From the IMG/VR virus record IMGVR_UViG_3300033148_002472, positions 1 through 31,403 of that record: DNA of 31,403 nt; one strand, written 5' to 3'. The stretch comes from a virus. This document shows positions 3,104 to 5,165 of this stretch, in pieces. The first letter of the stretch is position 1. Every line of letters begins with the position of its first letter. The position numbers and the translations under genes were made by a program. The notes beneath the pieces were generated by a model. That model ran no database searches, had not been told where the DNA came from, and saw nothing but the letters and a program-made list of their open reading frames with translations.

Positions 3104-3174
3104 AGGCCTATAGCTTATTGGTAAAGCGTCCGTCTCATAAACGGGTGAAGAGGGTTCAATCCCCTCTAGGCCCA
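3104..3174 (+). tRNA. tRNA with anticodon CAT (elongator Met or Ile2)
   Basis: D-stem GCTT/AAGC, anticodon stem TCCGT/ACGGG with loop CTCATAA, T-arm GAGGG-TTCAATC-CCCTC, discriminator A. The acceptor AGGCCTA/TAGGCCC has A1 opposite C72. The three G-C pairs that mark initiator tRNA are absent from the anticodon stem, so it is Met elongator or lysidine-modified Ile. CCA is not encoded; a run of seven T follows. Confidence 0.9.
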
Positions 3175-3253
3175 TTTTTTTAAGAAAGTGCTTGCATGCA
3201 CATGCATTCACCTGCATTAATGTGCACTGAAAAGTCGAGTCTGCATATAGTTT
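3175..3253 (+). other. Gene-free spacer with a TGCA-rich hairpin
   Basis: After the tRNA the sequence contains several TGCA/ATGCAT units and an inverted repeat TGCACAT (3197-3203) / ATGTGCA (3220-3226). CTGCATATAGTT (3241-3252) is the left arm of a 12-bp inverted repeat whose right arm is at 3329-3340. No coding sequence is supported here. Confidence 0.4.
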
Positions 3254-3340
3254 AATTAGGGCCTCTAGGAATAGGGGCCTTAATTTTTTACTTGATTCAA
3301 AAGCCGCAATGAGTATGTTCCTGCCAACAACTATATGCAG
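3241..3340. repeat. 12-bp perfect inverted repeat around the terminator
   Basis: CTGCATATAGTT at 3241-3252 is the exact reverse complement of AACTATATGCAG at 3329-3340, enclosing the terminator hairpin in between. The right arm overlaps the alternative stem CCTGC (3320-3324)/GCAGG (3337-3341), so the two foldings compete. Confidence 0.6.
3254..3289 (+). terminator. Strong terminator at the end of the main tRNA cluster
   Basis: A 12-bp stem (3254-3265 with 3274-3285, including two G-T pairs) with the eight-base loop TAGGAATA is followed by further T residues to 3289. It ends the transcript of tRNAs Phe to CAT and separates it from the structured region that follows. Confidence 0.8.
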
Positions 3341-3557
3341 GGAAGCGGATACCCTCGATAACAACCGTATGACACTCCAGAGCTGAACAAGTCTGGCCCC
3401 AAGGGATAAAAAAAGAGGTCTAGCAGTGTGTGAAATACATGAAGCCCCCCGATAACCGTTGAGTCTGTGTGCGATAGAATGTTATGCTGGAATATTAAAT
3501 CGAGAAACACCGACATGCAGGCAACATGGCGGGTAAGCAGGGCTTCATATATTTCAT

Positions 3558-3644
3558 TTTATGCAGGGTATATCAGTGGTTAGATTGTCGGCCTCATAAG
3601 CCGAAGGCCGCCGGTTCGAGTCCGGCCCCTGCAACTTTATGCAG
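3558..3644. repeat. 9-bp direct repeat flanking the embedded tRNA
   Basis: TTTATGCAG occurs at 3558-3566, overlapping the tRNA 5' end, and again at 3636-3644 just after its 3' end. The repeat may mark insertion of the tRNA into the surrounding RNA or simply reflect a shared stem sequence. Confidence 0.4.
3562..3634 (+). tRNA. Second tRNA with anticodon CAT, inside the structured region
   Basis: Acceptor TGCAGGG/CCCTGCA (7 of 7), anticodon stem TCGGC/GCCGA with loop CTCATAA, T-arm GCCGG-TTCGAGT-CCGGC, discriminator A, no CCA. It starts 5 nt after the 17-bp helix that ends at 3556, about 390 nt from the other tRNAs. With two CAT tRNAs in the phage, one is probably Ile2 and the other Met; T1-A72 is a weak pair, so an initiator role cannot be excluded. 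Confidence 0.92.
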
Positions 3645-4062
3645 TGAAAAATGGACTAGAGCCGAACCCCGAAAGGGAAGTAGCTGCACCTTTCGAATTT
3701 TTCCATCTTGCTGGGTGCAACCCAACTCGCCTTGGTCGCGCAAGGCGGGGGCAGATGGAGCTTTATTTTCATTATTTCACACTGATACAGGCAATGAGAA
3801 TCAGGGGCCGGTAACCCATAATTTACCCTCAACCTGTAGAGACATACCAAATATAAGAACCCACTTAAAAGGCTAAGGGAGCTGGCAATACTGCGGTGGC
3901 ATGGTATGAGCGATACGATCTAAGACCCAATGGCGATAGGCATATCCTCTCAAGGCTTTCCTTAGTATGCGATAGCTGCGTACTAAGGGAGCTTCGAGAA
4001 CGCTTAACTCCCAACCGAGCCCATAACGATAATCATATCGCAAAAATAATTTAATAATCTGC

Positions 4063-4090
4063 TTGCAATAGCTACCGCTACTTGTAGAGT
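4063..4090 (+). promoter_or_regulatory. Candidate sigma70-type promoter for the rightward operon
   Basis: TTGCAA (4063-4068, four of six), a 16-nt spacer and TAGAGT (4085-4090, four of six) would start transcription near 4096-4098, on the AAGCTTATCAC box. The gap between -10 and box is 5 nt, the same as at the leftward promoter. Confidence 0.4.
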
Positions 4091-4128
4091 AGTTCAAGCT
4101 TATCACTATAACCATAAAATACCGCATT
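4066..4128 (+). promoter_or_regulatory. AAGCTTATCAC element, copy 4 (start of rightward operon)
   Basis: CAATAG and CTACCGCTAC (4066-4081), 14 nt, AAGCTTATCAC (4096-4106), TATAACCATAAAATACCGC, then ATG at 4129. The arrangement mirrors the leftward copy at 1669-1730 base for base in spacing, with the decamer inverted. The stretch TCACTATA is also reminiscent of single-subunit phage RNA polymerase promoters, but the other copies do not share it. Confidence 0.65.
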
Positions 4129-4392
4129 ATGAGCAGTAAAATCACAGAGGCAGTAAAAACCGCCACATTCAAAACATCGGACGGACTAAAAGTGACCGCA
4201 TCATACACAGCTGAGGTAATAACCTCGCAAGATGGATGCAGGGAAGGAAAAGAAGCCGTATCCGTCCTATCACATTTAGAGCTTCACAGCTTCCTAGTCA
4301 TAGAAAACCCCACAGGGGATGATAGCTATGAAAACGAGTTTTACATCCACGACGAGCTATTCAAGCACGTAGACGATAACCAGCTGTATTAA
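4129..4392 (+). CDS. Hypothetical protein, first gene of the rightward operon
   Basis: The gene encodes 87 residues (MSSKITEAVKTATFKTSDGLKV onward). It looks like a compact soluble beta-rich protein with an acidic C-terminal half (DDSYENEFYIHDELFKHVDDNQ). There is no membrane segment or recognised motif. The ATG lies 22 nt after the AAGCTTATCAC box and lacks an obvious Shine-Dalgarno sequence, like the other genes that follow this element. I do not recognise the family. Confidence 0.65.
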   Translation: MSSKITEAVKTATFKTSDGLKVTASYTAEVITSQDGCREGKEAVSVLSHLELHSFLVIENPTGDDSYENEFYIHDELFKHVDDNQLY

Positions 4393-4396
4393 GATT

Positions 4397-4708
4397 ATGA
4401 GCGACGAATTAGACACAAAACTATTACACGCAGAAGGATCTAGGACGGTCAGCGAGTATAACCTACTAAGGATAGCCACCAAAGAGTGCCACCTTGAGAT
4501 AATAAAAGTAGGGGAGGCTGTAGCTAATGCATCTAACGCTGGTAAATTCTCATGCGAGGTAAGGCTTGAGAATATGCCAGATAAGAAGAAAATCCCATTC
4601 GAGCGCTATTTAGTGCATAAAGGATACATTATTAGGAGCTGTAAGCAGGCTCACCCAGAGTCGGTTCAGATCCCATACACCTATTTCATCAGCTGGGGAG
4701 TGGAATAA
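4397..4708 (+). CDS. Hypothetical protein upstream of the small terminase
   Basis: The gene encodes 103 residues beginning MSDELDTKLLHAEGSRTVSEYN. Starts 4 nt after the previous stop and ends 1 nt before the small terminase gene, so it belongs to the same transcript. It is predicted soluble with mixed charge and an aromatic C-terminus (YTYFISWGVE). I recognise no family. Placement next to the small terminase is the only functional hint. Confidence 0.65.
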   Translation: MSDELDTKLLHAEGSRTVSEYNLLRIATKECHLEIIKVGEAVANASNAGKFSCEVRLENMPDKKKIPFERYLVHKGYIIRSCKQAHPESVQIPYTYFISWGVE

Positions 4709-4709
4709 T

Positions 4710-5165
4710 ATGCCTAAAAAGCTAAAACTACAACACAGGCAATTCGCCATCCTAATGGCCCCTGGCAATATTCCAGCGGTAAAAGCATACATGGAATGCT
4801 ACCCAGATACTTCATATGATTCAGCCAGATCCAGTAGCGCCGATCTCCTAGCAAATCCTAGCATACAGGAGGAAATAAAGCGCATCAGAGGCCTTGTAGA
4901 ACAGGATGCTGTGCTTTCAGTAGAAGAAAAGAGGAAGTTCCTAGCTAGTGCTGTGAGGACTCCACTATCAGAAATGGACACAGATAACCCTCTGGCTACT
5001 GAATACACTATTACAAAGGACGGGATAAAGGTTAAGGCCTTCTCTAAGGAAAAGGCTATTGAGATTGATAACAAGATGGCTGGGCATAATGAGGCTGAGG
5101 TCGTTAAACATGAATATAACCTCGTTTGGGGCGAGGAAGAGCAGGAAGAGGAAAAGAATGATTGA
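4710..5165 (+). CDS. terS: Small terminase subunit
   Basis: The gene encodes 151 residues. The N-terminal half has the layout of the small terminase (Terminase_2-like) DNA-binding region: LQHRQFAILMAPGNIPAVKAYMECYPD, then SYDSARSSSADLLANPSIQEEIKRI, which is the phage version of the 'new cell, resize, repeat vector' helix-turn-helix. The middle is helical (oligomerisation) and the C-terminus is acidic (WGEEEQEEEKND), as usual for the portal- and large-subunit-contacting tail. It would recognise the packaging site and load the large terminase. Unlike most phages, the large subunit is not the next gene but lies about 3.1 kb further on. Confidence 0.8.
   Translation: MPKKLKLQHRQFAILMAPGNIPAVKAYMECYPDTSYDSARSSSADLLANPSIQEEIKRIRGLVEQDAVLSVEEKRKFLASAVRTPLSEMDTDNPLATEYTITKDGIKVKAFSKEKAIEIDNKMAGHNEAEVVKHEYNLVWGEEEQEEEKND

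Follow-up and report, generated by a model that had tools for sequence, protein, structure and literature searches.

GOLLD and ROOL are phage RNAs that have recently been shown to form RNA-only cages, the GOLLD cage being a 14-mer. GOLLD combines conserved domains with a variable linker, which sometimes holds tRNAs and which faces the interior of the RNA cage, and in the 3′ region of GOLLD env-38 (421-833) about 76 nt precede the linker (497-538) and about 295 nt follow it (PMC12286853). Vibrio phage ICP1, which has no tRNAs, has an abundant non-coding RNA of ~800 nt in a gene-free interval (PMC7567579).

A preliminary description of a virus record from IMG/VR, 31,403 nt in length (hereafter the window), had singled out a gene-free stretch of about 800 nt and proposed that it encodes GOLLD, ROOL or a new class of RNA occupying the same niche. 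The window phage has a podovirus-like gene set and no close relative among isolates, its portal and tail proteins matching those of isolates at only ~27-37%. A gene for a Sak annealing protein occupies 203-982 (− strand), and ARAGORN identified 12 tRNAs, 11 of them upstream of the structured RNA and one within it. The array of the first 11 is closed by an intrinsic-terminator-like hairpin of 14 pairs with a T tail (3254-3289). We propose that the structured RNA extends from 3320 to 4045 on the + strand, as do all of its features given below, based on homology to two viral contigs, with the 5′ end placed after the terminator and the 3′ end at a final hairpin, H11. No clear promoter for this RNA was found in the window. 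Downstream lie two small genes (4129-4392 and 4397-4708) and the gene for the small terminase subunit (4710-5165), all on the + strand, followed by those for the large terminase subunit (from 8314) and the portal/head-tail adaptor (from 10250) and then by head and tail genes.

Several other features were apparent in and beside the tRNA array. Between the array and the large RNA, a separate small transcript (3190-3289) may end in the terminator at 3254-3285; Rfam gave only a chance-level match to RyhB there (E 1.3). A tRNA-like stretch at 2414-2498, missed by ARAGORN, aligned over its full length with the Rfam tRNA-Sec model below threshold (23.8 bits, E 0.017) and, by eye, has a long acceptor stem and an apparent UCU anticodon; this stretch could represent a tRNA of selenocysteine or 'allo' type, or one in decay. 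A second such stretch at 2707-2782 (GGGAACC...GGTTCCCACCA, with a CCA end) was called by neither ARAGORN nor Rfam and is preceded by a terminator-like hairpin, GCCCACC/GGTGGGTTTTTT, at ~2649-2682.

Homologues of the RNA were found among viral contigs reached by portal alignment, namely L086 (64% identical), L087 (61%) and L090 (44%). Blastn aligned positions 3310-3427 of the window with L090 766-881 (119 nt, 75% identical, E 2e-14), and an nhmmer profile of this pair matched L087 83-156 (E 2e-4), where inspection revealed a full homologue that is backed by an independent 3′ block. The homologous spans are ~60-626 in L087 and ~760-1170 in L090, giving RNAs of ~410 nt (L090), ~565 nt (L087) and ~720 nt (window). 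In all three phages the RNA lies after a terminator-like hairpin, read off the sequence at ~23-57 in L087 and ~710-743 in L090, and upstream of packaging genes; for L087 this refers to the large terminase identified downstream, the small terminase not having been sought. Just past the L087 RNA and before the next genes is a perfect inverted repeat, AAGGTGT-TG-ACACCTT (636-651), which resembles an operator site. An alternative alignment of the window and L090 through TAGCTACCGCT (window ~4066, L090 ~1080) was rejected because this sequence is absent from L087 and its order conflicts.

Further searches indicated that the RNA is confined to few of the phages examined. A covariance model built on helices H7 and H8 of the 3′ block (R1) recovered the window, L087 and L090 (E ~1e-13), and no other match in the 1.25 Mb of related contigs searched rose above chance; L087 and L090 were the sole matches in 34 whole records of portal relatives. 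R1 had no match in 404 bacterial genomes (6, then 398), a search made with the host not identified and without a positive control, and it gave only chance-level scores in ICP1 (best E 0.35) and phage K. When the regions from all three contigs were used as blastn queries, isolate phages gave only the tRNA or chance matches. Other pattern-scan matches in viral contigs and species genomes were judged unrelated from their flanking sequence. L086, the closest phage by portal, had no match across its whole 23-kb contig, implying that the RNA is dispensable or located elsewhere; the distribution among relatives is patchy, subject to possible incompleteness of the L086 contig. Two members of the same portal clade, L006 and L091, carry a lone tRNA-Met(CAT) (1976-2048 and 1498-1570, respectively) and no other tRNA in the stretches examined; these tRNAs were considered as counterparts of the RNA and discarded, since R1 finds no RNA there.

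Comparison of the three RNAs revealed two common blocks, one of ~90 nt at the 5′ side (window 3340-3430) and one of ~260 nt at the 3′ side (~3785-4045). The 5′ block, defined by the blastn and nhmmer matches and by pair tables, contains H1 (3345-3348/3365-3368), H2 (3371-3373/3418-3420) and H3 (3377-3380/3393-3396), and its invariant elements are a loop, GGATACNNTCG(N)ATAACNACC, and GGATANAAAAA. The 3′ block opens with H5 (3787-3791/3833-3837), which encloses H6 (3811-3814/3823-3826), and continues with a core at 3843-3908 that was recovered by both pair tables and RNAalifold. This core comprises H7 (3843-3848/3903-3908), H8 (3861-3865/3895-3899) and the inner H9 (3872-3875/3883-3886), with ATAAGAACC and TAAGGGA as invariant elements. 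Further downstream, the position of H10 (3960-3967/3981-3988) is taken in each homologue by a hairpin that differs from it (alignment A6). The 3′-terminal hairpin H11 (CGATA/TATCG, 4027-4040) has the counterpart GGATA/TATCC in L087, whose 3′ end reads as a hairpin with a T run, GGATAAGAATGTATCC...GTTTTT; H11 was not seen in L090. The motif CGATA occurs seven times on the + strand of 3345-4030, versus 0.8 expected, and the homologues do not retain most of these copies.

The eight helices present in all three RNAs, H1-H3 and H5-H9, vary in sequence in a manner that preserves pairing. Relative to the window, 31 of the 75 pair cells compared differ and 30 of these 31 still pair, in a total that includes H11, common to the window and L087 only, and with helix registers set by hand or eye. 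In the window, L087 and L090 set, H5 reads ACAGG/CCTGT, GCCGG/CCGGC and ACCAG/CTGGT; across the three RNAs H7 reads CATACC/GGTATG, CATGAG/CTCATG and CTAATC/GGTTAG, and H8 reads CCACT/GGTGG, CACCG/CGGTG and CTCAT/GTGAG. In a MAFFT alignment (A7), all nine pairs of H7 and H8 formed in all three RNAs (27 of 27 cells), and seven of the nine had changed on both sides. The H7 and H8 score was not reached in any of 500 shuffles, and sliding the register by one to three columns reduced pairing to 25-43%; the signals of H5 and H1 taken singly were weaker, being matched in 13 and 32 of 500 shuffles, respectively. RNAalifold, given no prior helices, recovered H7, H8 and the inner H9, and its energies for two overlapping alignments of the three sequences on which the covariation rests, A5 (z −4.4) and A7 (z −6.4), were better than those of 1000 of 1000 shuffled alignments. 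Alignment A6 surpassed 997 of 1000. The result for the 5′ block (A4; 90/1000) was not significant, because this block barely varies. Two of the hairpins in the preliminary description belong to this conserved part. Its nested hairpin at 3786-3838, which corresponds to H5 and H6 and had been proposed from the window alone, later held in both homologues with compensatory changes, and its hairpin at 3961-3987 has a hairpin in its place in all three RNAs.

The homologues also bear on whether the region is free of genes. No protein frame was conserved when the three + strand frames were compared with both homologues (best tblastn E 0.94), and the frames at 3526-3876 (+) and 3873-4208 (−) belonged to no PHROG family; the stretch does, however, include a complete tRNA-Met(CAT) gene at 3562-3635 (ARAGORN; Rfam RF00005, 65.9 bits), so that only the absence of a protein-coding gene stands.

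This tRNA lies within an arm (3429-3781), delimited by the alignments with L087 and L090, that separates the two blocks and differs among the three phages. Between the blocks the window has ~350 nt, L087 has ~185 nt of different sequence in which ARAGORN found no tRNA, and L090 has only about ten nt and no arm. The arm is closed by H4 (3429-3437/3773-3781), a helix of 9 bp both in the window (TGTGAAATA/TATTTCACA) and in L087 (TGAAAATAA/TTATTTTCA). The sequence TTTATGCAG occurs on both sides of the embedded tRNA-Met (3555-3647), and these repeats are possibly a trace of the entry of the tRNA into the arm.

The more conspicuous structures of the preliminary description all map to the window arm. 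The helix pairing 16 of 17 positions (3431-3447/3540-3556) is real, in that such a helix never arose in 200 dinucleotide-shuffled versions of the region, and the CCCC-GAAA-GGG loop and the three-way junction at 3703-3758 are likewise present, as are the two hairpins described above. These arm structures are not conserved: the 16-of-17 helix was not seen in L087 or L090, and the three-way junction is specific to the window phage, having no counterpart in the alignments with either homologue. Within the 16-of-17 helix, TGAAATA (3431-3437) has two possible partners, one in that helix and one at 3773-3779 in H4, and the other half of the helix, ATGAAGCCC/GGGCTTCAT, is compatible with H4. The proposal of a structured RNA is supported for the core, whose helices are kept with compensatory changes; the 16-of-17 helix, the junction and the GAAA loop belong to an arm that differs in L087 and is absent from L090.

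Folding energies separated the two parts in a complementary way. The flagged region folded better than its shuffles (z −3.2), and the proposed RNA (3320-4045) gave z −3.9, or −3.2 without the tRNA, compared with +0.5 to −2.4 for coding stretches of 700 nt. The arm alone gave −4.3 in the window and −4.5 in L087. Without arm and tRNA, the core had an ordinary energy in the window (z −0.65) and in L090 (z −0.68), indicating that the evidence for the core is its covariation and that the stability comes from the arm. Comparison of the three sequences establishes a predicted RNA fold that is conserved and that carries a modular arm, containing a tRNA in one phage.

We consider it probable that the product of the region is a structured non-coding RNA that stands alone and belongs to an uncatalogued class. 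The main rival, because the place upstream of the packaging genes is common to all three phages and the tRNAs are not, holds that the RNA forms the 5′ portion of the terminase transcript and acts in cis as the leader of the packaging (late) operon. It would control that transcript, for instance, through RNA antitermination of the kind seen at the put sites of phage HK022, or at the level of processing or translation. In the window and L090 the RNA immediately precedes small genes and that of the small terminase subunit on the same strand, with no strong terminator after it, and in L087 it is upstream of genes leading, again on the same strand, to the large terminase. However, the L087 RNA finishes with its hairpin and T run, and L086 has the small terminase and its upstream genes without the RNA. 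Known antiterminator RNAs are far smaller than an RNA of several hundred nt with an optional, tRNA-bearing arm. We regard a leader as unlikely.

That the RNA is instead a highly diverged or trimmed GOLLD, its core representing the conserved 3′ region and its arm the linker, appears improbable. The layout of ~90 nt, arm and ~260 nt does resemble the ~76 nt, linker and ~295 nt of env-38, and tRNAs sometimes occur in the GOLLD linker (PMC12286853). Nevertheless, the GOLLD model (RF02032) had no match at E<=10 in the window, in L087 or even in L090, where the alignment cannot be disturbed by an arm, in a search that relied on Infernal's general sensitivity without a positive control. No GOLLD turned up in 398 genomes, in phage K or in six tRNA-bearing phage regions. 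The ROOL model (RF03087), likewise run without a positive control, had no match in the three RNAs at E<=10. More broadly, Rfam returned no family but tRNA above chance in the window and no large-RNA family at E<=5 (3150-4150), and in L087 and L090 it gave only chance matches, with no large-RNA family at E<=10. Of the initial assignment to GOLLD, ROOL or a new class, the structured RNA is upheld by covariation in the homologues, and membership in either named family found no support. It is highly improbable that there is no single RNA but only the tail of a tRNA array with stray hairpins, the homology deriving from DNA sites or a cryptic peptide, since this reading, while compatible with the ordinary folding energy of the core and with the tRNA gene inside the region, is largely refuted by compensatory changes in many helices and faces the absence of a conserved frame in the homologues.

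We propose that the stand-alone RNA consists of a fixed core, formed by the 5′ and 3′ blocks, with an optional, phage-specific arm between them. It would be a discrete RNA of ~400-720 nt, transcribed from after the tRNA-array terminator to H11. By analogy with GOLLD and ROOL, which are thought to act as scaffolds, it would function in trans as a scaffold on which the arm would be the site that displays cargo. The embedded tRNA would either be released by the standard tRNA-processing enzymes or be kept on the scaffold. A bolder version of this analogy, which we put forward only tentatively and think doubtful, is that the RNA could represent a third, independent family of self-assembling large phage RNAs, in which two conserved domains flank a modular arm that carries exchangeable cargo, in this phage a tRNA. 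An unrelated-looking RNA with a layout like that of GOLLD and ROOL would suggest that phages reached this design more than once. With a smallest homologue of ~410 nt and an arm that is present, different or absent, the three RNAs offer a simple set for testing the role of the arm and the tRNA.

Comparison with the known systems shows both shared and distinguishing features. Like GOLLD, a large, intricately folded RNA of phages and prophages that is often near tRNAs, the window RNA has a tRNA neighbourhood, with an adjoining array and a tRNA inside; the suggestion of a common niche fits this phage but not L087 or L090, in which ARAGORN found no tRNA. The arrangement in the window, where the conserved blocks flank a variable, tRNA-bearing arm, may also parallel that of GOLLD, whose 5′ region is less conserved and whose 3′ region is conserved; this comparison was made at the level of block layout rather than of helices P1-P27. 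In contrast, the new RNAs are shorter (~410, 565 and 720 nt) than many GOLLD RNAs, which exceed 800 nt, and the covariance model does not match them. The ICP1 RNA is similarly a long phage RNA in a gene-free interval, but it comes from a phage without tRNAs in which R1 matches are at chance level. ROOL differs in that its model matches none of the three RNAs; what it has in common with them is a comparable size, an origin in phages or prophages, a location close to tRNA islands and a linker (PMC12286853). The RNA class described here is probably new and of a known general kind, that of large phage RNAs near tRNAs such as GOLLD and ROOL.
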